From the NCBI GenBank assembly GCA_006384855.1, contig VCJN01002140.1, positions 36,738 to 100,737 of the forward strand: DNA of 64,000 nt, given 5' to 3'. Below, piece after piece: positions 3,781 through 38,883 of this stretch. The DNA comes from Tetraselmis striata. Its lineage: Eukaryota; Chlorophyta; Chlorodendrophyceae; Chlorodendrales; Chlorodendraceae. The position numbers and the translations under genes are program-made. Below the pieces are notes generated by a model. The model had not been told where the DNA came from and made no database searches. It saw nothing but the letters and a program-made list of their open reading frames with translations. The first letter of the stretch is position 1. Each line of letters begins with the position of its first letter.

Positions 3781-4063
3781 CTAGTAACCCCTGACACGAC
3801 ACGCTAGTATCACTTCGTGCTGGTCCCCCCCCGCGCCGGCCCGGGCCGAGGACAAAATTCAGCCGGGGCACAGACTGGCAATGCAGAAGGCATGCTGCAA
3901 TTGGCGCTGCCACTACTGAGGCACTTAAGCGAATATCATGCCCATCTTAATCTTATTACTACCCAGACATGGGGAGACCGAGCTCGAGACCATGCGGTCG
4001 CCCTCTCCATGAAATGGAGTGCTGCTCGCTCGCCTTGCCGCCCTATTTGTCTTCCTAAGCCAC
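3781..4063. other. Convergent intergenic stretch
   Basis: Lies between the stop of the small plus-strand gene and the stop of the galacturonokinase on the minus strand. No feature can be identified, and no clear polyadenylation signal. Confidence 0.4.
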
Positions 4064-7000
4064 TCAGGGCGCCGGCAGGCCTGCGTCCAGCACGCCGGCG
4101 GCGTCTCCTGTGTCACACAAACAGGCACGGCTCGACGCTGCCAGCGCTGGCCACTGCCCCCGGTACGCCGCCATGGCCGCGGTAACGGCCGCCTCCGCCT
4201 CTTCCGGCGCCACGAGCGCCACACATGCGCCACGCGTACCTGCGCCGCTGAAGCGCACGCCGTACACGCCGGGCTGCTGGCTCAGGATGCGCTGCAGGTC
4301 GACCATGGGCTCGCTGCCCACCTGCAGCAGCAGGAGAACCAGGCGCGGGCATGTGTTGGATTACTCTCGACAGCTGGTCCCAATTATAGCGTCTCGATTT
4401 TGCTCCCCCACCGAGCTGACTGTTTGAAAATGAATAAAGGGTTTAGGTTTACGGCACGACTGGAGCACTAGGCATAGCCAAGTGTCTATAGCCAAGTGGT
4501 TTTGCTCTGGGCGGCACACAGGCTGTGCGGAGAGGGAACACGGCCACTGTTGGTGACATCGGGTTCTGGTAGGGTATAACCCAGGCCACATCCTTGTAAG
4601 CTTTTATCCTCTTAACTTTACTTAACAGAAAGTACAGCCGTTGAATATCCTTCGACTGCATTGCCATGGGACTCAATTTGCACAACCAGTGGGGTACACC
4701 AATGCCGTTCAGTATTCTGAAGTGCCTGCTACTTGAAGGTTCCTCCCTGTCTTTCTGAGTTCCCTTCCATTGCTATTTCTGGTCGAAATTCTGAAATATA
4801 ATGCTAGGAACTTGCCTGGTAGTTGCTGACGGACGACTGCCCACTTTCCGACATGAGGCGCCCAAATGCATGCAGGCCGCCCTCCGCCCATACTCGCTTG
4901 CCTTTTGCCATGCGCTCCTGTTCGCCAAAGTAGTGCGCGGCTCGGTGGGCAGATATCTCATCTGGTGCCAGGCGTGGAGAGGGGGCGGTGGTCAGTTTGG
5001 GGGGGGGGGGGGGGGGGGGGACGGAGGGACGTGAATTTGGGGAGTCTGAGGGCCAGGGGGGAGCGAGGCAGTGGTGGAATGGCAAACTAACCCAAGTCAG
5101 CCGCATGCGCCTTGTACTCCGCCGGCGTGATGTCACGCAGCACCATGGCACCATCAGCTGGTCTCCCTGCGGCCTCCGCCAGCATCTGCGCGGCACGGCG
5201 GCATTCCTCCACTCGGCCTGGTAGACCGGCACACCCCAAAAGAGCACCAGCGTTGGATTAAGTGTTGGCGGGCGCGGGCCAGCATGTGGGCTAGCCTTGG
5301 TGCATCCTCCACCCCCCCCCCCCCCCTCCCCTGCCTCCAGCCACCAGACTCATTTGCCATTTCTACTATCCCGATGACTCCCCATGACTCAGCGTCCTAC
5401 AAAGAGTCTACATTGGCAACTTACTCCCTTGCTTGGGTGAATCGCACCTGCCTGTGAGTAGACGGATGCGCTGCTACTACCACTATCCCTGCTAAAGGTC
5501 GCACACTCCCCTGGCGCTACTCTCCTGCGCTCTACCAAATAGCAACACTGTGTCCAGCACAGCTGTAGACGGCCGCGCTGCCCGGCTAGAACTGAGCATA
5601 AATAAGCAGAGATGGAATGCTCCTACATGCCACAATCGCAGGCATTCATTGAGTGCATTTCAGCCCTCACTGACCGTTCTCTTTTTATGTATGGACACTA
5701 TGGCCGAGCTGGCATGCACGAGGCCATGCGGTGGTAAAGAAGTGCACTATTCGGGGAAAGGGGGGGGGGGGGGAAGGGGGCAGAGGCCGAGTACCATTGT
5801 AGCCGGACGAGGCAGTCAGCGCGGCAGTGAGCCCAGAGAATGCGAGCAGCACCTTGAAGCCTCCAGGAGGCGCCAATGGCATGGGCATGTGTTGGTGCGT
5901 GCTGGCCGCACAGTCGATAACTGTCAAGTGGTTGGCGCGGCTCAGAAGAATAGCGGATTGGTCTAGCACGCCGTTTCTCAGGCCCAGATACCCATTCTCG
6001 ATGAGCCTGCAGCAGTTTCACAACTTCATTTGCTAAGCAGCAGTAGGGAACAGCTGGAGGAGGTCTTTCGGTGCTGGGTGAGTGTGGCAATTGGGCAATC
6101 TGCACGCCTGTCCAACTCCACGTTTTCCTCTGGAGTCACGTTAAGTCCGTTGGCGTCCTCCAATGCCAGGAGGCAAGCCACGCCCACCGCCGCAGAGGAG
6201 CTGACGCCCGACTCATGCAGTCCGGCTGGTGCTGTAATGTGGCCTACCAGTCCCCGGTGAAGCCTGCGAGGGACAGCAGCCCCTGTTGCTCTTGCTGTTT
6301 GCATAGGTAATTTATAGGTGCGTACGGGGTGGGAGGGGGGGTGGGGGGGGGGGGGGGGGGGGGGGGGGGGGTGGACGCCATGCGTACCTATACCCTTTCT
6401 GCTGCAGCGCCAGGGCGGCGCCACACACATAAACCCCCCAGCCATGCTCCCCGCCAGCCTCGTTGCGGGGCGGCACTGCGCTCAGGTCAAATTCCACCAG
6501 CCCGGCAAAAGTGGCAGACGTCATGCTCACCGCCGTGCCTGTTGAGGGCAAAAATACCAGACTGACGCCAAAATCCAGCGCCATCGCACTGACAATTCCC
6601 CCCTGTATGCGGACCAGGGGAAGCACCGCAATTTATTTCCTATCAGTCCAAGCACAGTCACTCAGCACTACTCTACAAAACTGTTGGAACTGTGCATGTA
6701 GCAGAGAGTGAATGGGTGTGCAGCTGACACAGCACATCTGTGTTTGCTTGGACGGGCTGCTCGTGAAGGTGAATGCGCGGGTAAGCTGCGGCGCGATGGT
6801 ATTTCATAGCTTTGATGGCGCATCGGAGCAGCACCCCCCCCCCTCCCCCCTTCCCCGGGGAGAAAGGGCGTGGGGAAATAGAACGATCTAACAGGGAGCT
6901 AATTGTTACAACGAGTTGCCACAAGTTATACTCGCACGCGCCCTGGCGCGTTCGCCAGTCATGAGCGCATGCGCCACCAACGGGGGCTGACTGCAGTCTC

Positions 7001-14137: not shown

Positions 14138-14421
14138 AACAGTAATTCAACCTATTTTACACCTTGGAATTCATTTTGTACCGTAGGGTTTGGTTATGCC
14201 CTAGTTCCCGGGGCTACTATCAGTACTTCAGACTCACGGGTGTTGTAGCTTGGGTTTGTAGACCTAGGGTGCAGTGCGGCATTCATGAGCGTGCATGCCA
14301 GCCGCGGAGCATATGCAATGCTGGTTTTGGAGCATCTGTCCAAAATGGGACAAGATGAGGCAAATCAAGACTCATGATGATGAATAGATCCACTGGCTAC
14401 CCGCAAGACGTTGCTATTAGT

Positions 14422-17400
14422 TTACTCGTTGAGCATCCCCAACTCAAGCAAGTCCTTCTTTCGTGGCTGCGTTAAATTTGACAACTCCGCCGGGTTTGCG
14501 TTGCGCTGGGGTGGTTGACATGACGTGGACGCAGTTGTTTCGTAGCTGGCTGATTTGCCAACCAGTTTGCGCATATGTCTTCATGACTTCGACGCTTTTA
14601 CCGCACCACTTCTTTCTGACCATGGTGCCGTCCTCGTTGAACACCTCGCGACTTCCCGACGCGACGTGAATGGCCTTCGCGTACGATAGGGGGACGGCTT
14701 CAAGAAGCTTCCAAGGAAGCGCCAGGCACTTCTCCCAGCTTGTGTCAACCGGCTTCTTCCCTCCTTTTGTCTACGCGTACAACCATAGGGGCATGAGAGG
14801 TTTGCCCTTTGCATTGGCGTGGAAGGGCTCGTTTACGGCCACGGTCAACGTGTCGTCTTCGGTAGTCTCGCGCGAATTCACAAGCCCAATGACGAATCTC
14901 GACTCCCAATCACCAAGAGTTCAGGAGACTTGTCTTCCTCATGCATCTAATGATGGCCAAGACCGCGAGCTATGTTAGTCCCGAGCGAGACGCCACGCCA
15001 TTTTTGTCCCAATAGGGACAAAATAACAAGCAAGGTAGATAGACCAAAAAAGGACAAAAATGACAAACAATGGGAGTGACTCACATCGGAGACGTCAATG
15101 ACACCGAGGTTCGTGCCCTTTGCATCGCTGGGCGATGTGTTGTGATGAAGCCTCTCCTTGGCGCCGGCGTGAAGTTCCTGGAAGGCGCTGTCATCTTGAA
15201 GCACTTGAGCACGAACCTCGGCTTCAACGCGAGCGGCTTCGGCATTGTTGAGGTCTACGTTGGGAGCCATCGTGTGACGTGCCTCAGCGGGCGCGGTCTG
15301 CCCCTGCTCGCGCAAGAAGTCGTCAACTTCCTCTTTCCGTTGCGGCCAGAACCCAGAGAAAGCTGCCGAAGGAGCAGTTTGCATCTCATCCACGTCGTCG
15401 AGCAGATTCTTCCAGCTTTCGCACTCGACAAGGGAAAAGTGCCACTGGACCGCCAGGTCCGTGATGTACGACCTGACCTTCTTGAAGTCATCCAAGTACC
15501 TCTGGACCTTCAGCGCGTCGAGCTTCTTTTTGTCGCAAAGAGCGTACAAAAGGGGCCGGCCCGCACGAATCTCGGGCGTCCCAATTGGCGCGCTCTTCAA
15601 GATTTGCACGGGATCGGAAAGCGGCGTGTTGGACCACAAGGAAGTGCGCAACGAGCCGCCGGACGCGGCGGCGTCATCACGTGTGAACTCGAATTTGTGC
15701 GGCTTGCTGATGTCATGGATGCGGTCTTGGAAATGGGGCCTTATCCCACTCAGAGAACTCCAGGGAGAATGAGAGCTCAGCAATCTCCGGAGTGGGCGAG
15801 AATGCCTTCGCCACCAAGTCAAGAAAGGCCTCGATTGTGTAGGCGGAGCTGCAAGATAGCGCAAGACTGATGCGGCTGAAGATCATGTTAACCCGTTCGT
15901 GAGTGTGCCCGACAGGCAGGGAGACCAAATCAATGACGTCACAGATGCCAATAGACACAAGCCAATTACATAGGGCCGCCACGTTCCTATTCTCGTTCTC
16001 CCTGACGGTGTTGTCCATCTGGATATGATGTACGGGATCTTTCTACCACTGTGTTGGATTTCCTGCATCGCAGATCATATTTCACTAGTCCACGGCTACT
16101 GGACAACCACGGCGAATCTGTCGGGAGGCTAACGAGCTCACCTTCATGATCGTGATCCATATCAAAGTGCACGTCGTGGACGAATCGTGGGGGATGGTGT
16201 TGGTGTAGTAGTAGATGTCGTCCGGGCGGTATCCGTCGTACTTCACACAGATAAGGTGGTACTTGAGGAGCATGTTGGGCTTCACAGTCTTGGGGATGCG
16301 AACCCAGTGAGGCAGCATGGTCTTCGCGGAGTCCATGCTATCAATTTCGAAGACGACGAAGTTTCCATGGCCAAGGCGCGACTGGAAGAAGGCATTGTTC
16401 AAATCCCTTCGTTCTTGGCGCACTCTCTTGAGGTGGACCTTCTACTCGGCTTTGACCTGACGCCTCACGAGCTGTTGATGTTGATGGTGCACTTGACGTT
16501 CCTCCGGCGTCATGTCCTTTGTGCAAATCTCGCGAGCTTGGTCGCTGGGCGCTTTGCCCGCCGCGCAAATGGGACAGTGGCTAAATCGCTTTACCTTTGG
16601 CGTGGTGATATCCGGGAAATTCTCCTTCCAAGTCCGGCAGAAAGTGTCGAACGACGTGAGCTTCACTTCGCTCTCGGTAGCCAAGTCTATAGAGCGGCAG
16701 GGGCAGAATAGGTCGGTATACAAACTAGGTCTCATATGTGAGACAGAAAAGTTCGGTCTAAAGTGGGTCGAAATAATTATATCGATAGTGGGATGAATAG
16801 TTTTGTCAATGCACGAAAACGATACATCATCAGCGGGGCAAACTAGTCTCATCACGATTTCTATCATCAGCGGTCCCGTCACGAGCGGCACGAAACATGT
16901 CCGTAACAAGCAAGACGATAACTTATATCATCAACGAGAAAACATGGATGTATTAGCGGGACGACATTTTAGAAATCGGAGACAAAAAAAGGTCTCTCAT
17001 CATGGCGACGAAATCGGTATTTTATTAGCGGGATAGAATCGGTATGTCATGAGCGGGACGAAATCGGCCGGTCATCAGTGGGACGAATCGCTCTATCAGC
17101 AGTGGGACGAAAATTGGTTTGTCATCAACGGGCCGAAGTAGGTCCGTCATCAATGTGACGAAACGGTATGTCATCAGTGGGACAAAACCGTCTGTCATCA
17201 GTGGGACAAAACGTTGTGTCATCAGTGGGACGAAACGTTCTGGCATCAGCGGGACGAAATCGGTTGGTCATCAGCGAGACGAAACGGTATGTCATCAGCG
17301 GGACGAAACGGTATGTCATCAGTGGGACGAAATCGGTATGTCATCAGTGGGACTAAACGTTCTGGCGTCAACGGGACGAAATCGGTTTGTCATTTGTACG

Positions 17401-18340
17401 ACGAAACGGTTTGTCATCAGCGGGACGAAACGTTCTGTCATCAGCGGGACGAAATCGGTCTGTCATCAGCGGGACAAACGTTATGTCATCAATCGGACAG
17501 TTTGGGCCTTACCTACCACGCAGAATGGCGTTGTCGTCCTCATCCCACGACTTGTAATAGTAGTAGACGCATATCTTGGTCATCCAGGGAGGTAGGTGCT
17601 TCTTGAAGGCCTCGTTGTTGCCGTCGTGAGAAGGCATGATCTCGACGTGACCGAGGTCATCCGAAAAGAAGTGTTCGAGAAACATGCGCACATGCTCCCT
17701 TGGTCCGGTTTGTGTGCTCTCGTACTGCTTGCGATGCCTGATGTACGTGGGTTCGCTATCCACCACCAACCGCTGGATCACGAGACGTCTGCGTTTCGAG
17801 ACCTGATGCGAGACCTCCCACGCCCACACGTGTAGATGGGCCTCGATGATCAAAACAGCGCAAGTAGCCACCGTGATTAAACATGTAATTGAACTTGTCG
17901 GATGACGACTCGTAGCCATCCCAGAGAACCTGAGCGGGCCGGTCAAAGGAGCGGTTATGATTGCCAGAGTGTACGGTCAACGCACGGTCCATCACGGCAC
18001 CAACGAGGGCCTCTCCGCACTGAGTGTATAGCTTGTGCACGCACTTTCGCGAACAGCACGGCAGCTACTCGCTAGCCTCCTCGGCGAGCATGAGGCGGAT
18101 ATAGTCGCATGAGGTGCGCTTGCTGATCAGAGACGAGCCCTTGCCAGTATCGCTTTCGGCGACCTCATCGGAGCCCTAGCCCCACGTGTACTTCCTTTCT
18201 CAACCTCCTTACGATCACTAGCACGCGCGTCGCAATCACACGAGCGAGTACCCGCTGCGGCACGAACACGGCGGTTATATAACTGTAGTGTCCGACGCGC
18301 CGGATCATGGAGAAGAGGCCATGCTTTCGACCGCCGCCAT
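14422..18340 (-). pseudogene. GHTHE-motif (DUF7869-like) transposase-like gene, copy A, disrupted
   Basis: Same gene as 34702-38633 in opposite orientation. The start ATG at 18340 is followed by a TGA after MAAVESMASSP, where copy B continues, so this copy is broken near the N-terminus. Recognisable downstream: VKRFSHCPICAA (Cys pair), LPHWVRIPKTVKPNMLLKYH, IQMDN-VRENENRNVAALC, LPVGHTHERVN, and a long C-terminal region ending ELGMLNE with TAA at 14424-14422. Where copy B has a nonsense codon, copy A has CAA (EVRAQVLQDD). The intron at about 17510-16697 contains a 25-bp minisatellite. Confidence 0.75.
17025..17500. repeat. 25-bp minisatellite in the transposase-gene intron, copy A
   Basis: About 19 imperfect units of the type GTCATCAGTGGGACGAAA plus variable TCGGT/CGGT. 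Because 25 is not a multiple of 3, all frames stay open and spell repeating junk peptides. Occupies the same intron as the array at 35.54-35.97 kb in copy B. Confidence 0.92.
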
Positions 18341-18983
18341 GCTACAGCGTGGGGCGAGTGGGGGCGGTGACGAAGGACTGTGATATGTGGTGAGGAAGAG
18401 TGACGGCCGATGACCGTTCTCGGACGGGCCGTTGACCGGGGTGCATAATATCCAAGTACGGGTGAAGATAATTGCACTTGATGACTCAAACACCGGATCG
18501 GTACCGAGTCAGAATACATGATGCCGTACATATGAGGTTTTGTAAATCGTGCTACATAAAATATTTAGGAAATATCTCCGTGGTAGTGTTTCGTGTTATT
18601 TCGTATTTCTTTCGTATTCCGTTAATAGTTCTGTACTAGTATGTACACCCGTCGAATCCAATCCAAGGAATATATCATCGCATAAAGGAATATTATTGCC
18701 ACGCTACTATACTCTCGTACCGTTTTGACTCTCGAGTAGGGAATATATTATCTTCCAGTAATAGAAATATATAGTCGCAGTAGTTTGCCCTGTATATTCG
18801 TCGCGGTTCAAAATACATGAACTTGATGACGACGACGAGGTGCACATAGTGTGCGCACGCACGCCGTTGATCCAGCAGGGGTCAGAGCGGCGGCAGGCGG
18901 AGACCATGTCATTTCCCCCTCTCCCTCACCGCTACCCACCCAAAAACTCGCTCATCTGCCGCGTCAACCAACCTACCGCCAGA
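18341..18983. promoter_or_regulatory. Divergent intergenic region between the two element genes, copy A
   Basis: About 640 bp between the divergent start codons, AT-rich, matching 34062-34701 of copy B in inverse order. Presumably holds both promoters. No transcription-factor site can be named. Confidence 0.5.
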
Positions 18984-21900
18984 ATGGCGCCGAAGAAGAA
19001 TAACGAGCCTGACAAGGAAGACAAGGACGACGCCACCCAGGTGAGTTGCGCGCGGGTACAATAGCTGCCTACATGCTCGACGCGTGATGCGGCCAGATCT
19101 AGCGAGTTCGGTTAGGGTTCCCTGTAGAAGCGGTGTAATCTAGGCTGGACCGTTCGAGATGTAGGCAGACGAGTGGGAATATAAACCCAAACGAGACGAG
19201 CGGTATCAAGGTCCTTCACGGTAGCATTACGTCCCGTCGAGGCAGCTGCGACATGATTTGTAAGGATGCTAATTGATGGTAGAAGGGGGGTGGGGGGTGG
19301 AGGGCGGCCAGGTGGACGGTGTGCATGCACTCCGCCGTCAGGAGTGGTTTAATATTAGTGGGAAGCGCAGTAATTTAAGACATAACATTACAAAACTGCA
19401 ATACTTAATGTATTGGAAATGGTTATGTCATCAGTGGGCCGAAACGGTATGTCATCAATGGGACAAAACGGTATGTCATCTGTGGGACGAAACAATCTGT
19501 CATCATTGGGACGAAACGGTGTGTCATCAGCGGGACGACACGTCATGTCATCAGTGAGACGAAACTGTTTGTCATCAGTGGGACAAAACGGTATGTCATC
19601 AGTGGGACGAAACGGTCTGTAATCAGTGGGACGAAACAGTCTGTCATCAGTGGGACAAAACGGTATGTCATTAGTGGGACGAAATAGGCTTGTCACCAAG
19701 GGGACAAATCGGTATGTAATAAGTGGGATGAAACGGTTTGTCATCAGTGGGACGAAATCGGTCTATCTTCAGCGGGACGAAACGGTTTGTCATCAGTGGG
19801 ACAAAACGGTCTGTCATCAGCGGGACAAAATCGGTATGTCATCAGAGGTACATAATCGTACGGTAATTTTGAAATCAGACTGTTTGCGCAGAACCTTCGC
19901 AGATGTTTCGAAAGCTGGTATGCCCAACCGGCTGCAACTCGTCCGGGCTAGAGGGCACTTCCGCAAATTAGAGTCGTGAAGGAGTTCAAGAAGTCTGAAG
20001 TTCTTCAAGTTGAACTAGAGAAGATCGGCATCGAAGATGAGAAGAGCAGCGAGTTCGCAAATTTGATTGACCTCTACTCGCGCCCACAGCGGTAAGCTGC
20101 CTACATGATGAAACTTCATCTTGATAATGCTGCCGGGCTCTGACTTTTTTTTTGTGCAGTGTTTTTGAGCCACTTGAGCAGATTTCTGAAGCCTACCGGC
20201 ATGTTAAGCTCGGGGTTCGAGGATGGGATGAAGCCGCCGAAAAACTCCACGCGCTATGTAAACACTACCTGAATGAACTCTCTAGTCACGAGCGTCTTTA
20301 CGGCAGGGAACTTTCCCAGAAGGACGTGAGGAAGGTTTACGAAACAATTCGGAAGCCTATCAATACAATCCTCGAAAACAAGAAGTATGGCTTTGGCAAA
20401 GACAGAGCTCACTTCCGAGTTGCCCTCATGGAGGTAAGTTGCGACCTACTTCAGTGTGTTAATCACATGGAATACTCAGTCCTTTCTCCGTACTGAAGTT
20501 TTGTTTTTCGACCCAGGATGCTGGCTTTGGCCCCGGTACATACGCCATGGCTTGACGAGCCGTCTCTTGCCAAGCAGAGCGACAGCGCGGATCTTCTTGT
20601 GGGCCAGATGTACTTGGTGGTTGGACTGCTTATCCAAGGCGAGCACAATGTGACCCCGAGTCTCTACGAGTTGGTGGATGACAAAAAGCATGCCGGCGAC
20701 AAAAGGCCCCATGGCTGTTACGCACACCATCTCGGAGTGGCTCGCGATGATTGAGACCTGGAGGTTTCACGATCTCTTACGCCGAGAAAGCATCAAGGTC
20801 ACGAATGCCATTGACACGGCAAAGGGCAGGGAGGCAATCCGACTGGCGACGCCAGACGAACCGGCAACGAACTGGGGAAATATCTCTCGGACCACATCAT
20901 CGATTGGGATGTGGAAGACAAAGTGTCGGGCCAGCAAGCGGCCGCTCGCCTTGACGCCATCACCAAGTTCCGAGCGAAGGTTGATTACCTCGGCCCAACA
21001 GGCTTCCCAAGAAAGTTCCAGGATTTGTTCAAAGGAGCTCATCGCTCCGGTCCTTTGATGGTCTTGCTGACCCCACCTGCCAGATGGGGGGACATGAAAT
21101 CCGCCAATTGTCTCACACCATTACCGGTTCGAGTGCATATATCGCCGCTACCAACAATAACATCAGGAGTGAGGCGTATTGCATCAAGAATCAGATGCCG
21201 GACTTGGTCATCTCATTCTTCACAGAGTTTGCTCTTCTGGCTTGTGCGCCGGAGCTCATCGCGGTTTCCGCTCCGAATGTTTCTGATGAGCTATGGATAT
21301 CGATGAAGGTAAGATCTTGTGCAACCACAAATGCTCTTCTGAATTTTCATTGTGAGCCATTAACCCGAATCGGTTTTGTAATACACACCGGCCGAGGCAC
21401 TTCCGGTGATGCCCAAGGGCGAATTGGTCCACAAGGATGATAGGGTCTATTTGAACACGGAGCTTTGCAAAACTTGCATTGTGGAGGGGGACTTCAAGGC
21501 TCCCGCGAAAAAGCAAGTCGTCGTGGAAGCCATGTCGGCAGTTCGTGCCAAAAAGGCCACGGTCTTCACTGCCGACGCGCTTTTCGGAGCTGGTTCGCAC
21601 ACTTGGGACTCGAAGGATGCTGCGTGGGGCACGGACGACTTCAACGACGTGTTTGCTTTCGCCAGGCAAGATACCCCCCACAACCCGGGTGCGTAGATGG
21701 CTGTGCTCTCACTTACCTGATTTCCGATTTTCACCGCAGGCAGGTGAATATCCTGGCGGGGTATTCTGACGTTTACACTGCTCTTGATGGGGGCCATTTC
21801 TTCATTCACCTCTCGGACCAGCAGCTTGGATCCGCAATCACAGCCGTACAAAACAAGCTGAGGACCTCATCTATCACGTTCTGACTTGGGCCAAGGATTG

Positions 21901-22661
21901 CCGGATGAAGATGGGCATTTCTCTGCGTCACGACGCGGAGTATTACCTCTACGTCAGGAGCCCCGCCAAGCATCATAGCCGACAACATCCGTTCCGATGA
22001 TCCCCGAAGGTGAGATTTGATCCGTGGAATGTAGCCGGCTTGCATTTATCATCAGTCGCCGAGACGGTTGTGCCTTTCCAGGTTCTCTACATCTCTCATG
22101 CTGGATCACTTCAAAGACACTGCGAAATTGAAGGACGAGAATAGACATACGGTGAACAAGTACCAAAAGCCTATCGCTCTCTTTGCCAAGCACCTGAAGA
22201 TAGCGGCAACAGACGCGACAACAATCGTCGACGTCACAGCCGGAACCGGGACAACCGCGGTGCATAAGGGGTGCAACCCGGGTGAATGACATAATGGGAT
22301 CAACATAAAAATTAACGCCTTGTGCGGTTTGCCACGCCTTTTAGGTCGCTGCGGGCTTTTCCGTGTGGTGGGACCATATGCATCCGAGCTACTCGTTCCT
22401 ACACAAGAACTTGAAGACCGCCCTTATTGACAACCAGAAGACGCAAATCGCTGGGATGAAGTCCAGGATGACCTTCTGGTTCAAAGAGAAGCCATGTGAC
22501 GAGACTCAAAGACTGCGTCCAGATGACTTCGAGAAGCGGCCGGGTCTACCCCTCCAATGACCGAGGGAGAGGAGCGAACATAGCGTGCCGCGGAGGAGAA
22601 GAGGAGACTCGAGGCGGCAGAGCGTCGAGGGGATTATGTGCTCGAAGATGATGATATGTAG
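18984..22661 (+). pseudogene. Methyltransferase-like gene of the large element, copy A, internally deleted
   Basis: Exon 1 (18984-19040) encodes [19 protein letters not shown] and ends CAG|GTGAGT. The next recognisable coding is at about 19890, since the middle exons present in copy B are deleted. Further blocks: [38 protein letters not shown] (20.2-20.4 kb), [17 protein letters not shown] (20.6), [20 protein letters not shown] (21.0), [19 protein letters not shown] (21.2), then the methyltransferase-like part: [20 protein letters not shown] (21.57-21.63), [33 protein letters not shown] and [11 protein letters not shown] (22.17-22.26). The end is RRGDYVLEDDDM with TAG at 22659-22661. Frameshifts at 20.7, 20.9 and 21.85 kb and a TAG at about 22578 indicate a decayed copy. 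Confidence 0.65.
19425..19858. repeat. 25-bp minisatellite in the methyltransferase-gene intron, copy A
   Basis: About 17 units of GTCATCAGTGGGACGAAACG. Its left flank matches the flank of copy B's 33.06-33.64 kb array, and its right flank matches that of the 29.88-30.30 kb array, so it looks like a recombinant of the two. Confidence 0.9.
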
Positions 22662-22789
22662 TACAATTCCGCAAAATTAGCCGCTCATATGTTTTGTCCC
22701 GGCTTTGACGGAGTTTCAGCCCTTGACGGTACAAAGTACTTGTAGCCATCCCCCTCCCCCCCACCCCCCCCCCCCCCCCCCCCGAATGT

Positions 22790-25944: not shown

Positions 25945-26414
25945 CATATGATATGATATGATATGATATGATATGATATGATATGATATATGTATGATTA
26001 TGATATGATATGATATGATATGATATGATATGTATAATGATATGATATGATATGATATGAATATGATATGATATGATATGATATGATATGATATGATATG
26101 ATATGATATGATATGATATGATATGATATGATATGATATGAATGAATGATATATATGATATGATATGATATGATATGATATGATATGATATGATATGATA
26201 TGATATGATATGATATGATTATGATATGATATGATATGATATGATATGATATGATATGATATGATGTGATATGATATGATATGATATGATATGATATGAT
26301 ATGATATGATATGATGATATGATATGATATGATATGATATGATATGATATGATATGATATGATATGATATGATATGATATGATGTGATATGATATGATAT
26401 GATATGATATGATA
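25945..26414. repeat. (GATAT)n pentanucleotide microsatellite, ~470 bp
   Basis: Almost pure GATAT repeats with a few interruptions (for example near 25991, 26035 and 26142). The open minus-strand frames made of ISYH repeats are artefacts. Confidence 0.97.
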
Positions 26415-26849
26415 TCCCGCAATGTTGGACGACCCGGCCAATGCGGATCGGCACCGAATCCAAGCCGAAACGTTGCTGGAGGAGGTCCTCCATCCTATGG
26501 ATGGGGGGGGGGGGGGGGGGTGGAGTATAGGATATGTAATGTACCACACAAATCCCCATGTGGGTACAACAATATTTCAACCTATTTTGCACCGAGACAC
26601 GCGGTGCATTGTGAGTAGGTCTAAATTAGGGTTTGGGGTGAGCAGTTGGATTGATAGCTAACGTGAAGGCATGTTGGATCATTTGTGCCAAGTCGGGAAA
26701 ACAATTCCGTCCAAGCAGCGACAAATCAACATAGTGAAGGAAATGTTATAATGATTACAAGTAGTTTGTGCCGTCGGGGGATGAGACTCCGTCCAAGCTG
26801 GGACATAAATACGTGCGGCTCGGGAAGGCTATTTTTGCGGAAAAGTATA

Positions 26850-26853
26850 CTAC

Positions 26854-26888
<35 letters not shown>

Positions 26889-29800
26889 GTCAGAACCTTC
26901 GACCAAGTAATCCCCTCGGCGCCTTGCGCTTGTGTCTCCTCTTCTCCGCCGCTATACGCTCCTCCCGCTGCTCTTCCAGGGTCATTGGAAGGCGTAGACC
27001 CGGCCACTTCTCGAAGTCATCTGGACGCAGTCTCTGAGTCTCGTCCCATGGCTTCTCTTTGATCCATGACTTCATCGTGGATTTCATCCCAGCGATTTGC
27101 GTCTTCTGGTTGTCAATAAGGGCGGTCTTCAAGTTCCTGTGTGGGAACGAGTGGTCGTCCGGACTAAAGCAGTCCCACAACACACAAAAGGCCGCAGCGA
27201 CCTGTAGGCGTGACAAATCGCACAAGGCGTTATATATATGCTTTATTGCATTGTTATGACATTCACCGGGTTGCACCCATCACGCACCGCGGTTGTCCCA
27301 GTCCCGGCTGTGACGTCGACGATTGTTGTCCCGTCCGTTGCCGCCATCTTGAGGTGCTTTGAAAAGAGCGCGATGGGCTTTTGGTACTTGTTCACCGTCT
27401 GTCTATTCTCGTCCTTCAACTTGGCATAGTCTTTGAAATGGCCGAGCATGATGGACGTGGAGAACCTGGCAAGGCAAAAATCGGCTTAGAGTGATGTTAC
27501 AGTCCGGCCACGTTCCACGAATCAAATCTCACCTTCGGGGATCAAAGGCGCAAATGTTGCCAGCTACGATGCTTGGCGGGGGCAACCTGACGCAGGTGTA
27601 CCGAGAGAAGGGGCGTGCCGGACGGCGGCGCGGCCCCGACGACCTAAAATGGCTGCTTCTTCCTGCGTCGGAGCACCCCCGTGTCGCCCGTCTCATGCGT
27701 CACTTCATCGACGGCGTGCAGTTTGCCCCCTGATTGCTGCCTTGGCCGAGACAAACTTTTGGCGTCGTGACGCAGCGAACTGCCCATTCTCATCCCGCAA
27801 TCTTTGGCCCAAGTCAAGACGTGATAGGCAAGTTCCTCGGCTTGTTTCTGAACCGCTGTGATTGCGGATCCAAGCTGTTGGTCCGAGAGGTGAATGAAGA
27901 AATGGCACCCATCGAGAGCAGTGTGGACGTCAGAAGATCCAGTTAGGATATTCAACTGCCTGCGCGGGGAAAATTGGGAATGAGATAAATGAAAGCACAG
28001 TCATATACGCACCATGGTTGTGGTGGTGGGGGGGGGGGGGGGGGGGATTCTTGCCTGGCGAAAGCAAACACGTCGTTAAAGTCATCCGTGCCCCACGCAT
28101 CATCCTTTGAGTCCCAAGTGTGCGAGCCAGCTCCGAAAAGCGCGTCGGCGATGAAAACTGTGGCCTTGGTGGCACCAACTTCCGACATGGCTTCCACGAC
28201 GACTTTTTTTGTCACGGGAGCCTTGAAGTCGCCCTCCACAACGCAAGTCTTGCAAAGCTCCAATCTCAAAAAGACTTCATCATCGATAGATTCCACCCCT
28301 ACGCCCTTGGGCATCACTGGAAACTTCTCGGCCTGAAGTTTCAAAAACCGATTCGGTTTAATAGCTAACACCGTGGAAAATGTTGCAGGAAAGAAACCAT
28401 TTGCGGAAACAAACCCTATTTTACCTTCATCGATATCCACCGCTCCTCAGAAAACCCTAGAGCGGAACTCGCGAGAAGCAACGGAGCACATGCCAAAAGA
28501 GCAAACTCTCTGAAGAAGGATATCACCAAGTCCGGCATCTGGTTCTTGATGTGGAACGCCTGACTTTTGATGCCGGTGTTGGTGGTCGCGATGTGCTCTC
28601 GAACCGGTGTTGGGGTGAGGCAGTCGGCAGAATTCATGACTCCCCATCTCTTAGGAGGGGTCATCAAGACCATCAAAGGACCGGAGCGATGAGAACCTTT
28701 GAACAAATCCTGGAATTTTTTTGGGAAGCCACTTGGGCCGAGGTCATCAACCTTGGCTCGGAACCTGGTGAGTGCGTCAAAGCGAGCGGCCGCTTGATTA
28801 TCCGACACATTGGCTGACACATCGTGACTGATCGATGATGTGGTCCGATAGGTATTCCCCCCACGTCCTGGCCGGTTCGTCTGGCGTCAGTAGTTCGATT
28901 GGCTTCCTGCCCTTGGCCGTGTCGATGGCATTCATGAGCTTGATGCTCGCCCGACGCAAGAGATCACGGAACCTCCAGGTCTCGATCTTCGCCAGCCACT
29001 CCGCGTTGGTGCGCGTAACAGCCATGGGGTCATCGTCGCCGGCATTCTTGACGTCCTGTACCAACTCGTAGAGGTTTGGGGTCGCGTAGTACTCGCCTTG
29101 GATGAGCAAACCAACCACCAAGTACATCTGTCCCACAGGAAGATCGGCGCTGTCGCTCTGCTTCGCAAGAGACGGTTCGTCCAGCCAGGGTAGCTTGTTG
29201 CCAAAGCCAGCATCATGTGTCGCAAAAAAGCTTTAATAAGATAGGAATGATATTATTGGATGGGGAGTTAATGGGATAGGTTTCAACTTACATTCATGAC
29301 GGCGACTCGGAAGTGAGCTCGGTCTCTGCCGAAGCCGTACTTCTTGTCGTCGAGGATTGCACTGATGGCCTTCCGAATAGTTTCGTAAACTGCTCCTTTC
29401 TCCTTCGCGGAAAGTGGTCGACAGTGGTTGAGACTCCGGAGTCGATTCAGTTCTCTTTCGTAGTGCGCGACCAAATCTTGGAGTTTATATCTCGCTTCCT
29501 TCCATCCTCGTACCCCAAGCTGAACGTGCCGGTAGGCTTCAGAAAGCTGCTCAAGTGGCTCAAAGGCACTGCGATAAACAACCGAGTCAGAATTACGAAA
29601 AGAAGTGGGAAATTTAAATTCTACAATGGCGGCAACTTACCGAAGGGGGCGCGAGCAGAGGTCGATCAAATTTGCGAACTCGCTGCTCTTCTTGTCTTTG
29701 ATGCCGATCTTGTCAAGTTCAAGTTGGAGTTGTTCGGACTTGTTAAACTCCTTCACGACTTTATTTGGTGTGAGATTGTGATTCAAAAAAAAAGCCCGTC

Positions 29801-32800
29801 GCTCTGCAGCCTGATTCGCCTGCCAGCTCTCAAAGCACCTGCGAAGATTCTGTGCAAAATATCCAACTGTCAATCAACGAAAGATTCCGTCTCACTGGTG
29901 ACAGACCTATTTTCGTCCCACTGATGACAGACCTATTTTCGTCAACATGATGACAGACCGATTTCGTCCCCATGATGACAGACCTATTTTCGTCCCACTG
30001 ATGACGGACCTATTTTCGTCTCCCTGATGACAGACCGATTTTCGTCCCGCTGATGACAGACCTATTTTCGTCCCCATGATGACAGACCGATTTCGTCCCG
30101 CTGATGACATACCTATTTTCGTCCCACTGATGACAGACCTATTTTCGTCCCACAGATGACAGACCTATTTTCGTCCCCTTGATGACACACGGTTTATGTC
30201 CCTGCGGATGACAGCCCGATTTCGTCCAGCTGATGACATACCGTTTTCGTCCCACTGATGACAGACCGGTTTTCGTCCCACTGATGACATACCGATGTCG
30301 TTCCGAGGGAAAACTTCCTCCAGGACTGATAACGGTGTGGGAGGTCGGGTGTTGTCACTTACCAGTAGTTTGTGCATGGATGTGTCCCCGACTACAGTGT
30401 GTCCATCCTCGTTGAGCTTCATCGACATGTAGCGGCAAACTTCCGGAGACAGGCCGATATACATCTTGTCCGATGTGAAGCAGATGCCTTTGTTGTCCCA
30501 GTAGGTCTCCGGGTAGTTTAACTTTACAATGCGCTTCGCCTCCCGTCTGTGGCTGCCGTCGATGTTGCCATGGCGCGTGTCCATGTAGGTCAGGTAGCTG
30601 ACGATCATGTCGACTTCGGACTCGTAGGGCAAATCTTCCGCAACCTCGGCGCCTGCCCGCCTTCGTATGTCGCCACTTGGTCCTTGAAGTCGGCCATGGT
30701 CAGAGCGAGGGGCTCGTACTGAAAGGGGATACTTTGTTGTTTGACTAGCTACCGGGAAGGACACTGAAACATTTTCGGAGGACAAAGAAGGGTTCCTCTG
30801 CAAAACAATTAAAAATTGGCTATTAGTTGCGTTGGATTCTTCGGTACATCAAATCATTCAAATCTGATGGGCATTTACCATGTAGCTTTGCGCCACCATG
30901 TTGCAGTCTTGCAGCTTGGGGGAACGGAATTCACACTCCGCCGGTGGGGCGACGAACTTCTCGGATGGGAAGCTGACAATGTGAGGTAGCCCCGTGTCCT
31001 TGTCGGTGACGAGGTTGACTCTATCGGCGAGTAGCATGTTGATGTCACCACCCTGAGGAGTCTTCACCTCCGGATCGGCAATCTCGACTCTGATTTTTCC
31101 GTAAGAGATCCAGTCGACGGCACCGGTTGTGTGGAGGACTCTCAAAGCCGGGGGGGGTGGGAAAATACTCGCCGATTGGGAGAGCGTTCACGAAATCCTG
31201 GTCAATGTTGGTCAAGTCAGAGACGGTGATCTCTTCAAGCGCAAAGCCCTTCAGCAGCTGCGCCAACACTTTACGCTCGACCAAAGACCATGCGTAGTAC
31301 GATTGGAACAGCGGCTGAGATGCGAGTGGCGGCTAAATCGCGTGGAGAATCAAATTCTAAAAGGTGACTGTGATTCTCATCTCCTTGCTCAATTCCAAGC
31401 GACGAGGTTCCAGATGGATCTGCGCGGCCACACACGGGAAGAGCAAAACTTGCAACGCCGTGTAAATTCAAAAGCCTCAAATCATTTTTACCTACCTCAT
31501 ACTGCTCGTATTCTCCCATCCTGGCATCCAAGATTTTCCCAACGCATGCGAGAAATCGCGCTTTCGGATCATCGAAGAAGTCTTTGCCGGTCAAGGGGCT
31601 AGACGAGTGCAATTCCGTGTAGATAGATCTCCACTCGACCGCCAGGATTTTTATACCAGTGTATGGTCCATCTCCTCTCACTGAAGTCGATATAGGTGTC
31701 ATCATCTGTCAGCTCAACACCGACGCCGTTGAAGTCGACATAAGTGGCATACTTCATGAGCTTTGCCTTTTTGACGGGTGCATGCGTGCTGACGTCGAGG
31801 TTTAAAACCCGTTGCCTTTCATCCCCTGCCGTGCCGAAGAGGTCCTCATCCGTACCGGCACTGAGGAGTGCGGGCACTCTTCTTTGGGCCCTCTCAGCAG
31901 TCACCGCTCTAGAACCAGAGGCTCCAGAACCAGCCGCTTGCCCGGTAGTCGACTCAGAAGTCTTGGTATCGGACACTTCGGCGGGAGCGTCGAGTTTAGC
32001 AGTTGTTTCGGGCTTTGGCTTCATCTTGGGCTTAGGCTCAGATCTGGGATCCGTTTTCGGCTCATGCTTGGGCTCGGGCTCTTGCTCCGGCTCGGGCTCG
32101 GGCTCTTGCTCCGGCTCCGGTTCAGGCTCGGGCACATTCTCGGGCTCGTTCTCCGGCTCAGGTTCAGGTTCGTGCTCCGGCTCCGGCTCCGGCTCGTTCT
32201 CGATCACTGGTTCTGTTTCTGGTACTTGAAGCGTCCCCTTGGTCAAAGAAGAACCTTGAGTCGGGGAACCTGGAAAGAATGAGTAGAGAGTACTCAACAC
32301 ACCTGCGGTATGGGCATCAAGATCAACTACTGAAAAGCAATGACATGTTGCATCAAAGCCAATCGATATTTTTTTTCCAGGGGATCCCGATTTACTCGCA
32401 GGTTCCGACACAGTTGCCTTTGCCTTTGCCAATTGACGTCATGTTGAGTCGTCACCATAACTCACAAACTTCCGTGATACTTGCTAGGAAGGCTTGATAA
32501 TTTCAGTCACAATTACCTGGAGTCACAGTCGTCTCGGAAACCTTTTCTTTTCCTTTGGATTCCTTCGGCGCCTTTGGTGGCTCTTCTGGGCGTCCTTTCG
32601 AACCTGTCAAAGCACACAATTTCAATATAATTAGATAACATTTGAAACACACGCAAGTCATATTGGAGAGGTAAGGACCTGATTGGTAATAAGCTTGCAT
32701 AAGCTTTTCGTAATCCATAAACCTTCGCGCTGTCAGCATTTGAGCATCTGAGAGGACTTGGCCGCTCTTGATTCGGGCCCTCAAGAGAGCGGCGCCCGAT

Positions 32801-34061
32801 CTTTCTCCTTGCGAGTGCGTGCCGTAAGGGGGCCTTCTCCCTGTCAAAAGGCTCGGTTTCCAGGGTTTACCTGATGCTGCTTCGCCTTGTCTCGCGGCAG
32901 TTGAGGCTGGACGGGTCTTCTTGGCCGCCGGCTCCTCGAGGAGGGAAGAAGACGCCTTACTTTTTCTCGAAACAAGTGATCCGAGCGCGTCGAACTGTCT
33001 TGCTTTCTCTGTAGGTTTTGAGTCCGCTGGGACCTCTGACCTATCAAATTAAGATTCCGTCAAATTGTTTTCTTCCAACTAATGACAGACCGATTTCGTC
33101 CCGCTGATGACAGACCGATTTCGTCCCGCTGATGACAGACCGTCTTCGTCCCACTGATAACAAACGGATTTCGTCCCACTACTGATGACAGACCGATTTC
33201 GTCCTGCGGATGACAGACCGTTTTGTCCCACTGATGACAGACCGATTTCGTCCCACTGATGACAAACCGTTTTTGTCCCACTGATGAAATACCAATTTCT
33301 TCCCGCTGTTGACATACCGTTTTCCTCCCACTGATGACAGACCGTCTTCGTCCCACTGATGACAGACCGATTTCGTCCCGCAGATGACAGACCGATTTCG
33401 TCCAGCCGATGATAGACCGATTTCGTCCCGCTGATGACATACCGATTTCGTCCCACTGATGACCGACCGTTTTCGTCCCACTGATGACAGACTGATTTCG
33501 TCCCATTGATGACAATGCGATTTCGTCCCACTGATGACATACCGATTTCGTCCCGCTGATGACATACCGTTTTCGTCCCACTGATGACAGACCGTTTTCG
33601 TCCCACAGATGACAGACCGATTCCGTCCCGGTGATGACATGACCATTTTCAATACATAATGTACTGTGGTTTAATAATGTTATGTCTTTAACTACTGCGC
33701 GTCACACCAATGCTAAACCAACCCTTACGGCGGAGCACGGCCACAAGGTCCACCCTCCCACCACCAATTAGCATCGTTATTGGGCCAGCCGCGGCGGTAT
33801 CGACGGGACGCCATACAACCGTGCAGGAGCATAATACCGATCGACTCGTTTGGGTGTCTATTCCGACCATCCGCATATCCTCCTCGGACGGTCCTAGATT
33901 ACACCGTCTCTAGAGGGAACTCTTACTGAACTCGCTAGATCTGCCTGCATCACGCTTCAAGCAAGCAGGCAGTTACATACTGTACGCGCGCGCAACTCAC
34001 CTAGGGTGGCGTCGTCCTTGTCCTCCTTGTCCTTGGCATGCTCGTTCTTCTTCGGCGCCAT
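26850..34061 (-). CDS. Multi-exon gene ending in a beta-class DNA methyltransferase-like domain, copy B (probably degraded)
   Basis: Start ATG at 34061 ([20 protein letters not shown]). Exons then carry: a Lys/Ser-rich region (about 33.05-32.6 kb); a Glu-Pro repeat linker and [20 protein letters not shown] (32.4-31.6); [20 protein letters not shown] (31.2); [20 protein letters not shown] (30.9); [20 protein letters not shown] (30.5); [20 protein letters not shown] (29.7); [19 protein letters not shown] (29.3); [19 protein letters not shown] (29.1); [20 protein letters not shown] (28.7). The C-terminal part reads [20 protein letters not shown] (28.15), [20 protein letters not shown] then LTWAKD (27.8), [20 protein letters not shown] followed by [13 protein letters not shown] (27.4-27.28), and a poly-Asp tail from the CAT repeat, with stop at 26852-26850. 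The order motif IV, then W-K, then QKP plus motif I is that of beta-class N6A/N4C DNA methyltransferases, but the usual (D/N/S)PP(Y/F/W) is DALF. Frameshifts near 30.65 and 27 kb are likely. Exon boundaries are approximate. Confidence 0.6.
29880..30300. repeat. 25-bp minisatellite, copy B, array 1
   Basis: Units CCCACTGATGACAGACC plus TATTTTCGT/GATTTCGT, about 16 copies, inside the methyltransferase-like gene. Same unit as the arrays in copy A, in the opposite orientation as expected for an inverted element. Confidence 0.92.
33060..33645. repeat. 25-bp minisatellite, copy B, array 2
   Basis: About 23 units of GTCCCACTGATGACAGACCG lying in an early intron of the methyltransferase-like gene. 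Not separately functional as far as can be seen; it spells open frames on both strands. Confidence 0.92.
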
Positions 34062-34701
34062 TCTGGGTGTAGGTTGGTTGACGCGGTAGATCAGCGGGTA
34101 TCTGGGTGGGTAGCGGTGAGGGAGAGGTGGAAATGATCTATTTTTCGTCTGCCGCCGCTCTCACCCCTGCTGGACCAACATCGCGCGTGCGCGCACTATA
34201 ATGCACCTCATTCTCGTCATCATGGTCATTTATTTGGCACTGCGTCGAATATACAAGGCAAACTACTGCGACTACATTTTACTATTACTGGAAGATAAAA
34301 TATTCCCTACTCGCGAGTCATAACGGTACGAGAGTACAGTATCGTGGCAATACTATTCCTTTATGCGATGATATATTCCTTGGATGGGATTCTGTTGTAC
34401 ATACTAGTACATAACTATTAACGTAATACGAAAAATTCACGAGATAACACAAAATACTATCACGGATATATTTCCAAAATAGTTTCTCTATTACGACTTA
34501 CAAAAGCTGATTTGTATGGCATGCTGTATTCTTGCTCAGTACCGATCATTTGTTTTGAGACATGAGGTCGTTCGATCATTTTGACCCGTAATTAGTATTA
34601 TGCACCCCAGTCAACGGCCCGTCCGAGAACGGCCATCGGCCGTCACTCTTCCTCACCACATATCACAGTCCTTCACCCCCCCACTCGCCCCACCCTGCAG
34701 C
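34062..34701. promoter_or_regulatory. Divergent intergenic region between the two element genes, copy B
   Basis: About 640 bp, AT-rich in the centre, homologous to 18341-18983. Conserved segments flank both start codons in both copies, suggesting shared control of the two genes (inference). Confidence 0.5.
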
Positions 34702-37700
34702 ATGGCGGCGGTCGAAAGCATGGCCTCTTGTCCAAGATTCGGCGCGTCGGACACTACAGTTACAGTACCGCCGTGTGCGTGCCGCAGCGGGTACTCGTGT
34801 GATTGCGACGCGCGTGCTAGTGATCGCAAGGAGGTTGAGAAAAGAAAGTACACATGGGGCAAGGGCTGCGATGAGGTCGCCGACAGCGAGACTGGTAAGG
34901 TCTCGTCTTTGATCAGCAAGCGCACCTCTCGCGACTGTATCCGCCTCATGCTCGCTAAGGAGGCTTGCGAGCATTCGCCGTGCTACTTGCGAAAGTGCGT
35001 GCACAAGCTGTACACTCAGTGCGGAGAGGCCCTCGGTGATGCCGTGTTGGATCGTGCGTTGACCGTATACTCTGGCAATCAAAACCGCTCCTTTGACCGG
35101 CTCGCTCCGGTTCTCAAGGGTGGCTATGAGTCGGCATCCGACAAGTTCGATTACATGTTTGATCACGGTGGCTACTTGCGCTCTTTCGATCATCGAGGCC
35201 CCATCTACACGTGCGGCCGTGCATGGGAGGTCTTGCATAAGGTCTCGAAACACAGACGTCTCGTGATCCAGCGGTCGGTGGTGGATAACGAACCCACGTA
35301 CATCAGGCAGCGCAAGCAGTACGAGAGCAGACATACCGGACCGAAGGAGCATGTGCGGATGTTCATGGAGCACTTCTTTTCGGATGACCTCGGTCACGTC
35401 GAGATCATGCCTTTCCATGACGGCAACAGCGAGACCTTCAAGAAGCACCTGCCTCCCTGGATGACCAAGATTTGCGTCTACTATTATTACAAGTCGTGGG
35501 CTGAGGACGACGACGCGATTCTCCGTGGTGAGGCCCATTTTATCCAACTGATGACATACCAAATTCGTCACACTGATTGATGACAGACCGATTTCGTCCC
35601 ACTGATGACATACCGATATCGTCCCACTGATTACAAACCGATTTCGTCCCGCTGATGACATACCGATTTCGTTCCACTAATGTTAGACCGATTTCGTCCC
35701 GCTGATGACGGAACGTTTTCGTCCCATTGATGACAGACCATATTCGTCCCACTGATTACATAAGGTTTTCGTCCCCACGATTTTAGAACTATTTCGTCGC
35801 ACTAATGACAGAACTTTCTGTCCCGTTCACGATAGGGATTTTGTCCCGATGATGACATTTCAATCATGCAATCGAGTATGGTTTTGTCCCGCTGCTCACA
35901 AAGGGAATATTTCCTTGCTTATGTAAGACCGATTTCGTCCAGCCTTACATAACTTTTTCATCCCGCTGATGACAGAGCTTTCTTCGACATAACTTTTGAG
36001 CAAGCAACCATCCCGCTTCTGCTAAAATTATTCGACCGTGTCGACTTGCCCGCCTGTAATCGTTCTCTCCACTGTTAAACCGACATGGTATTTATCGGTT
36101 TTAGCGTGCGATTTGTTCCCGCTATTGTGAGCCCTTTTAAGATTTCGACGGAGAATATCGCTAACACACCCATTGAAACTACTTGCCGCTTTATAGATTT
36201 GGCTACCGAGAGCGAAGCGAAGCTCGCGTCATTTGCCACTTTCCGCCGGACTTGGAAGAAAGACTTCCCGGATGTCACCACGCCAAAGGTGAAGCGATTT
36301 AGCCACTGTCCCATTTGCGCGGCGGACAAAGCGCTCAGAGACCAAGCTCGTGAGATTTGCACAAAGGACATGACGCCAGAGGAACGTCAAGTGCACCGTC
36401 CACATCAACAGCTCGTGAGGCGTCAGGTCAGAGCCGAGCAGACGGTCCACCTCGAGAGAGTGCGCCAAGAACGAAGGGATATGTACAATGCCGTCTTCCA
36501 GTCGCGCCTTGGCCATGGAAACTTCTTCTTCTTTGAAATTGATAGCATGGACTCCGCGAAGACCATGCTGCCTCACTGGGTTCGCATCCCCAAGACTGTG
36601 AAGCCCGACATGCTCCTCAAGTACCACCTCACATGTGTGAAGTACGACGGCTACCGCCCGGACGACATCTACTACTACACCAACACCACCCCCCATGATT
36701 CGTCCACGACTTGCACTCTGATATGGATCACGATCATGAAGGTCAGCTTGTTAGCCTCCCGATAGATTCGCCGTGGTTGTCCAGTGGCCGTGCACTGATG
36801 AACTCTGGTCTGCGATGCAGGAAATTAAACTCCGTGGCAGAAAGATTCCGTACATCAGAATCCAGATGGACAACACCGTCAGGGAGAACGAGAATAGGAA
36901 CGTGGCGGCCGTCTGCAATTGGCTTGTGTCTATCGGCATGTGCGACGTCATTCATTTGGTCTTCCTGCCTGTCGGGCACACTCATGAAAGGGTTGACCAG
37001 ATCTTCAGCCGCATCAGTCTTGCGCTATCTCGCAGCTCCGTCTACACAATCGAGGCCTTTCTTGACTTGGTGGCGAAGGCATTCTCGCCCACTCCGGAGG
37101 TTGCAGAGCGCGCATTCTCCCTCGACTTCTCTGAGTGGTTAAGGCCCCATTTCCAAGACCACATCCAGGACATCAGCAAGCCGCACAAATTCGAGTTCAC
37201 GCGTGGTGACGCCGCTGCGTCCGGCGGCTCATTGCGCACCGCCTTGTGGTCCAACTCACCGCTTTCCGAACCCGTACACATCTTGAAGAGCGCGCCAACT
37301 GGGACGCCAAAGATTCGTGCGGGCCGGCCCCTTTTGTACGCTCTTTGCGACAAAAAGAAGCCCGACGCGCTAAAGGTCCAGAGGTACTTGGATGACTTGA
37401 AGAAGGTCAGGTCGTACATCATGGACCTGACGGTTCAGTGGCACTTCTCCCCAGTCGAGCGAGAGAGCTGGAAGAACCTGCTTGATGACTTGGATGAGAA
37501 GCAAACTGCTCCTTCGGCAGCTTTCTCCGGGTTCTGGCCGCAGCGGAAAGAGGAAGTTGACGACTTCTTGCGCGAGCAGGGGCAGACCGCGCCCGGTGAG
37601 GCACGTCACACGATGGCTACCAACGCCGACCTCAACGATGCCGAAGCCGCTCGCGTTGAAGCCGAGGTTCGAGCTTAAGTGCTTCAAGATGACAGCGCCT

Positions 37701-38633
37701 TCCGGGGAGTTCACGCCGGCGCCAAGGAGAGGCTTCACGACAACACATCGCCCAGCGATGCAAAGGGCACGAACCTCGTTGTCATTGACGTCTCCGATGT
37801 GAGTTCCTTCCATTGTTTGCCAATTTTGTCCTTTACGGGACAAAACAATTTGGTGCATCTGCCTTGCTTGTTATTTTGTCCCACCTGGGACAAAAATGGT
37901 ATGGCGTCTCGCTCGGGACTGACATACCTCGTGGTCTTGGCCATGTCATTAGGTGCATGAGGAGGACAAGTGTCCTGAAACTCTTGGTGATTGGGAGTCG
38001 AGATTCGTCATCGGGCTTGTGAAGTCGCGCAAGACTACCGAAGACACGTTGACCGTGGTTGTATACGAGCCTTTCCATGCGGATGCAAAGGGCAAACCTC
38101 TCATGCCCCTATGGTTGTACGCGCAGACAAAAAGAGGGAAGAAGCCAATTGACACAAGATGGGAGAAGTGCCTAGCGCTTCCTTGGAAGCTTGTTCAAGC
38201 CGTCCCTCTATCGTACGCGAAGGCCATCCACGACGCGTCGGGAAGTCGTGAGGTGTTCAACGAGGACGGCACCATGGTCAGAAAGAATTGGTACGGTAAA
38301 AGCGTCCAAGTCGTGAAGACATACGCGCAAACTGGGTGGCAAATCAGCCGGCCACGAAACAACTGCGTCCATGTCATGTCAACCACCCCAGCGCAACGCA
38401 AACCCGGCGGAGTCGTCAAGTTTAACGCAGCCACGAAGAAGGACTTGCTTGAGTTGGGGATGCTCAACGAGGAAACTATTAGCAACATCTTGTGGCTACG
38501 CGATGGATTTAATCATAATAATGATATTGACTTGCCCCCACTTTGTCCCATCTTGTACAAAATGCTCCAAAACCAGCATTGGATATGCATCGCGGCTAGT
38601 GTGCACGTTGATGAATGCCGCCATGCACCCTAG
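34702..38633 (+). CDS. GHTHE-motif (DUF7869-like) transposase-like protein, four exons, one premature stop
   Basis: Exons 34702-35527, 36197-36741, 36821-37798 and 37953-38633 join in phase to about 1009 codons. Donors CGTG|GTGAGG, AAG|GTCAGC and GAT|GTGAGT and acceptors TATAG, TGCAG and TTAG are all canonical. Seen: a Cys-rich N-terminus (CACRSGYSCDCDA); MEHFFSDDLGHVEIMPFHDG; FSHCPICAADKALRDQAREI (possible zinc site); LPHWVRIPKTVKPDMLLKYH; HDSSTTCTLIWITIMKE; then RIQMDNTVRENENRNV and FLPVGHTHERVDQIFSRIS. The D-N...ENRN...GHTHE-D pattern is that of a family of uncharacterised, apparently RNase-H-like eukaryotic proteins (DUF7869, from memory), so a DDE-type transposase role is plausible. A TAA at 37676-37678 (about residue 743) replaces CAA of copy A. 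The C-terminal exon carries YEPFHADAKGKPLMPLWLYA. Copy A suggests a true stop after LGMLNE. Confidence 0.75.
35540..35975. repeat. 25-bp minisatellite in transposase-gene intron 1, copy B
   Basis: Units ATTTCGTCCCACTGATGACA, more decayed toward 35.97 kb. Lies between exons 1 and 2, as in copy A (17025-17500). Confidence 0.88.
37825..37896. repeat. Paired short palindromes TTTTGTCC...GGGACAAAA in intron 3
   Basis: TTTTGTCCTTTACGGGACAAAA-type palindromes occur twice in the intron of the transposase-like gene. The equivalent intron of copy A has one intact (about 15001-15023) and one decayed version. Their role is unknown. Confidence 0.7.
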
Positions 38634-38883
38634 TTCTACAAACCCAAGCTACACCACCCGTGAGTCTTAAGTACTGATAGTAGACCCGGGAACTAGGGTA
38701 CAATCAAACCCTACGGTGCAAAATGAAATACACGGTGCAAAATAGGTTAAATTACTGTTGTACCCAGACGCCGGGTGCGTTTTGCGCGGTATCCTTATGC
38801 GTAGTGATCATGTATAGTAACTACGTACAGCCTTTTGCAGCTAGATATTACTGTAACTATTCATATTCATATGTTATGACATT

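Follow-up and report, generated by a model that had tools for sequence, protein, structure and literature searches.

The window analysed here is a stretch of 64,000 nucleotides from contig VCJN01002140.1 of the green alga Tetraselmis striata, within which a sequence-only reading had placed a transposon at 26568..38759. The element is about 12 kb long and carries two divergent genes, A and B (Table 1). Open frames in the window and JGI models of other copies bear out the earlier description of both genes as divergent and multi-exon, and the closest relatives of the window proteins are JGI Tetstr1 models at 89-93% identity. Gene A encodes a protein with a GHTHE motif. The product of gene B, about 1000 residues long in four JGI models, begins with a charged segment, followed by an E/P-rich stretch, extended parts without assignment and a methyltransferase-like C-terminal part.

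Copies of the element ends were sought in the 224-Mb assembly that contains the window (G000:C1732). Pattern searches returned 84 left and 431 right ends and none in reversed-pattern controls; the two counts are not comparable, since the left pattern suits one subfamily better. With the window excluded, 17 of 39 left-end matches start exactly at 26568, while 10 lie within 3 bases outside it, 5 further outside and 7 further inside (40 of 401 candidates scored), and 27 of 39 right-end matches end exactly at 38759 (40 of 419 scored). Many copies thus share exact ends, an alignment that the sequence-only reading had proposed, and the end positions show its boundaries to be exact. The matching terminal repeats it reported are inverted repeats of 27 nt, paired at 24 of 27 positions, and the element begins and finishes with AACA...TGTT. 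The inverted-repeat search itself extended the match to 34 nt (91%), since TGGGTAC/GTACCCA in the flanks pairs as well; this longer repeat was rejected as the true boundary, as most genome matches end inside it and its outer bases are a palindromic flank. Copies C2891, C2644 and C1441 are 97.8-99.1% identical across 3.3-3.5 kb, which suggests that the family spread recently.

GGTGCA/TGCACC motifs occur just inside both ends (26588-26610 and 38713-38743) and are candidate transposase binding sites; ACGGTGCAAAAT is present twice at the right end, within 38713-38743.

Target duplications were surveyed in 22 left/right end pairs, each pair lying on one contig and strand. Direct repeats of 4 bp were found at the junctions of 16 pairs (among them C2355, acaa/acaa), or at 13 of 19 independent sites after merging pairs with common flanks (C643 = C1160, C1460 = C2717, C613 = C483). 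With GTAC on both sides of the window copy, the probable 4-bp duplication of the sequence-only reading is now well founded. The pairs without one are C1590, C2333 (2-bp match), C501, C1792, C889 and C2110; some of these may be old copies or false pairings. In C264 and C1778 the two ends are separated by 28 kb and 24 kb, which makes nested insertions likely. The window copy is inserted within a dispersed repeat, and when the genome was searched with its joined flanks, 47 of 93 rows started at base 1, reached base 185 or beyond and thus crossed the junction at 149-152 with no element in between; of the rest, 2 were the window itself and 44 were shorter pieces. The one element-free site that was aligned (C926) carries GTAC once. 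For copy C1547, the same kind of search revealed no empty site. Inverted ends, a duplication of fixed length and empty sites are the marks of a cut-and-paste transposon with terminal inverted repeats, and the end counts, set against zero in the controls, together with the empty sites rule out chance or an assembly artefact. The segment 26568-38759 is a DNA transposon.

The GHTHE protein encoded by gene A belongs to PF25273 (DUF7869), with an E value of 1.9e-34 and 119.4 bits against a Pfam gathering score of 26, as the sequence-only reading had supposed when it called the protein DUF7869-like. The family occurs in green algae, sea urchin and metagenomes. Literature searches, outside which most subscription papers lay, found no mention of DUF7869, and nothing related was found for the GHTHE motif together with transposition. 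Compared by sequence with solved structures, the protein matched only a scaffold protein (E 0.016). Structure prediction, which the earlier reading had proposed as a way to look for a DDE (Asp-Asp-Glu) site, yielded a model with the RNase H order in which the invariant residues D385, D468 and E507 (P0056 numbering) occupy the catalytic positions. The best structural matches of the predicted fold are the Mos1/SETMAR transposases and retroviral integrases. Foldseek gave no match at E <= 0.001, and the family's absence there carries no meaning. With D, D and E conserved and in place in the predicted model, the gene A product is very probably a DDE transposase. Two public JGI models fuse neighbouring transposon genes: P0003 joins DUF7869 to PF01555, and P0089 joins DUF7869 to tyrosine-recombinase domains.

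The assignment of gene B is less straightforward. Its score against PF01555 (N6_N4_Mtase) is 24.8-26.2 bits in four of eight models, below the cut-off of 26.7, and the other four have no match; the phage DNA methyltransferase family phrog_67 matches four models at 3.5e-7 to 2.2e-6. Among solved structures the sequence found only a putative rRNA methylase (E 1). The motifs run in the order IV-X-I, which is that of beta-class methyltransferases. An S-adenosylmethionine (AdoMet) motif, TAGTGT, appears in 7 of 62 models, many of which lack that exon, and at the DNA level it reads VDVTAGTGT in the window and C1160 and IDVTAGTGT in C1547. In motif IV, however, 38 of the 62 models have IADALFG and one has IADALLG (the stretch was not found in 23), and DALF stands in the window, C1547 and C1160 at the DNA level. 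Both prolines of the PF01555 catalytic motif DPP(Y/F/W) are absent from 38 of the 39 models with the stretch, the last reading ADALL. Of the beta-class methyltransferase-like gene claimed earlier, the motif order, the AdoMet motif and weak profile matches stand, whereas the PF01555 cut-off is missed and DALF replaces DPPY. Judged from these motifs, a methyltransferase fold is probable; since DALF takes the place of DPPY, methylation by gene B is unproven, catalysis is doubtful, and so is DNA methylation. A literature search of titles and abstract openings found no eukaryotic DNA transposon with a methyltransferase gene.

The two genes are linked. A divergent gene B exon lies 4-16 kb upstream in at least 26 of 40 DUF7869 places, given that scoring covered 150 of the 336 gene B candidates; in 21 of the 26 the distance is 8.4-9.8 kb. 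Among the 14 places without one, C717, C574, C2015 and C1586 have too little contig upstream, and C1160 has a stop within the gene B exon. Approached from the ends, the exon lies 0.2-3 kb inside 29 of 84 left ends (27 at 1.27-1.35 kb), and it occurs at least 150 times in the genome. JGI identifiers agree: 25 of 61 gene B models are no more than 3 numbers from a DUF7869 identifier, where 0.7 are expected and 1000 random draws gave at most 5. Shared ends, 4-bp duplications and both genes in many copies, the pattern that the sequence-only reading had named as support for a new kind of element, were thus found, and many copies carry gene B. Between the window and C1547, the ratio of nonsynonymous to synonymous substitution rates (dN/dS) is 0.20 and 0.19 in two gene A exons and 0.22, 0.31, 0.10 and 0.72 in four gene B segments, lowest where motifs X and I lie and highest in the tail. 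Against C1160, which carries stops, dN/dS is 0.43 in gene A exon 1 and 0.44-1.22 in gene B, as in decaying copies. Gene B evolves under purifying selection.

Table 1. Features of the element and its target site in the window.
Feature	Position	Strand	Basis
Whole transposon	26568..38759	+	Genome-copy ends, duplications, empty site
Target duplication GTAC, left	26564..26567	.	Duplication survey, empty-site alignment
Target duplication GTAC, right	38760..38763	.	Duplication survey, empty-site alignment
Left terminal inverted repeat	26568..26594	+	Inverted-repeat search, trimmed to element
Right terminal inverted repeat	38733..38759	-	Inverted-repeat search, trimmed to element
Gene B, divergent, multi-exon, methyltransferase-like C-terminus (limits approximate)	26850..34061	-	
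Gene B motifs X and I (NKYQKP ... VDVTAGTGT)	27294..27392	-	
Gene B motif IV region IADALFG	28132..28152	-	DNA-level comparison of copies, model survey
Gene A exon 1	34702..35527	+	Open frame; splice sites judged by eye against P0056
Gene A exon 2: CPIC motif, first putative catalytic Asp (GAT 36541-36543)	36197..36741	+	Read against P0056
Gene A exon 3, DUF7869 core: second Asp (GAC 36869-36871), GHTHE Glu (GAA 36986-36988)	36821..37798	+	
Gene A exon 4, C-terminal part, cut off by stop in window copy	37953..38633	+	Open frames, alignment
Satellite array, ~25-bp unit, in a gene B intron	29883..30301	+	
Satellite array, ~25-bp unit, in gene B intron 1	33069..33648	+	
Satellite array, ~25-bp unit, in gene A intron 1	35543..35812	+	

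The sequence-only reading had called the element complete, but the window copy is broken: gene A has a stop, TAA at 37676-37678, where all seven other copies read have CAA, and gene B has a 2-base deletion near 31624 relative to C1547. The window copy probably depends on other copies. A second, decayed copy of the family lies inverted on the minus strand at 14138-22749, in pieces 77-90% identical; its right end is at 14138, its left end is lost, element bases 3728-6641 are unmatched, and it includes the satellite arrays at 16987-17498 and 19416-19845. The ~25-bp arrays in the introns of the two divergent genes share one orientation (+ strand), and 56 of 66 exact genome-wide matches of the unit fall on contigs with an element match (paired by eye). 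Left of the element, at 25946-26415, the 5-bp unit ATATG is repeated about 94 times, with CCACACAAATCCCCATGTG or the beginning of it on either side, at 25833 and 26544.

We consider it highly likely that the element is a cut-and-paste transposon with a DUF7869 DDE transposase and a co-mobilised, selected methyltransferase-like accessory protein. The RNase H fold is a prediction; the transposase activity, its binding sites and the role of gene B we infer as follows. The gene A protein would recognise the subterminal GGTGCA/TGCACC motifs, cut at AACA...TGTT and attach the ends to the target at points 4 bp apart; the 4-bp duplications would result from this. The gene B protein would be an accessory factor moved along with the element and kept by selection; it would most likely bind AdoMet and DNA, and it might mark or mask the element against host silencing or control access of the transposase.

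The methyltransferase label of gene B is weakened by sub-cut-off profile scores and an atypical motif IV. The protein could instead be a passenger or a remnant that does nothing for the element, and the weak scores, DALF and the tail dN/dS of 0.72 would be consistent with that; we think it improbable in view of the abundance of the exon, its linkage to DUF7869 and dN/dS of 0.10-0.31 in three of four segments. At the other extreme, gene B could be catalytically active and mark the DNA of the element by adenine or N4-cytosine methylation, with DALF functional in a site of its own. Purifying selection strongest at motifs X and I and the AdoMet motif in three copies argue for such activity, but with both prolines gone from nearly every model that has the stretch it seems unlikely.

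A separate question is whether the element falls within a superfamily that is already described and makes 4-bp duplications, Sola (Sola1/Sola2) being the most likely, as a large algal family to which a gene was added. Sola1 and Sola2 resemble this element in the 4-bp length of their duplications. We know of no methyltransferase-like gene in Sola. The 4-bp duplications without a fixed target and the probable DDE fold would suit this origin, whereas no named transposase family was matched in Pfam, which says little without a Repbase comparison; on balance we hold it to be somewhat unlikely. Sola is one Repbase superfamily with three subgroups, and separate superfamilies must not converge in PSI-BLAST (PMC4455052). 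Returning to a transposon with its own DUF7869 transposase, we tentatively suggest, at a little short of even confidence, that DUF7869 is an undescribed DDE superfamily with 4-bp duplications, of which the Tetraselmis branch took on a selected second factor for transposition or against silencing, namely a methyltransferase-fold protein whose catalytic motif has been rebuilt. A large Pfam family of unknown function would gain a testable role as a DDE transposase, and the small set of eukaryotic transposons with DNA-modification genes would gain a methyltransferase-like partner. Because a green alga contains near-identical copies, it could be tested what such a gene contributes to the survival of a transposon.

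Among known systems, the gene A protein has its predicted RNase H-like DDE core in common with Mos1/SETMAR of the Tc1-mariner group and with retroviral integrases. Unlike Mos1/SETMAR, the element has 4-bp duplications rather than TA, measures 12 kb and holds two genes, and no sequence match of gene A to them was found. Tc1-mariner duplicates TA, and IS481EU needs TGT...ACA (TNT...AYA) ends, which AACA...TGTT does not match (PMC10045372). hAT, MuDR, P, Kolobok and Dada conserve C/DxxH between the second D and E (PMC10045372); we rejected membership, as DVIH occurs in the Tetstr1 rows and is absent from P0024, P0038 and distant rows. CMC (CACTA-Mirage-Chapaev) and Transib carry C(2)C and H(3-4)H in that interval (PMC12730594), and by eye neither lies between D468 and E507 of P0056, which excludes them. 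KDZ/Zisupton makes 8-bp duplications (PMC12730594) as against 4 bp here. Gene B shares the motif order IV-X-I and the AdoMet motif with beta-class N6/N4 DNA methyltransferases (PF01555, phrog_67) but differs in DALF for DPPY/F/W, sub-cut-off Pfam scores and a large N-terminal part without assignment. Viral contigs were scanned with one peptide pattern from gene A and two from the middle part of gene B, and no relatives were confirmed. KDZ and other fungal transposons with TET/JBP dioxygenase genes likewise combine a DNA transposon with a second gene of DNA-modification type (PMC12730594), and they are the nearest case found among eukaryotic DNA transposons; the hosts differ, and the fungal TET/JBP gene removes marks whereas gene B resembles a methyltransferase.
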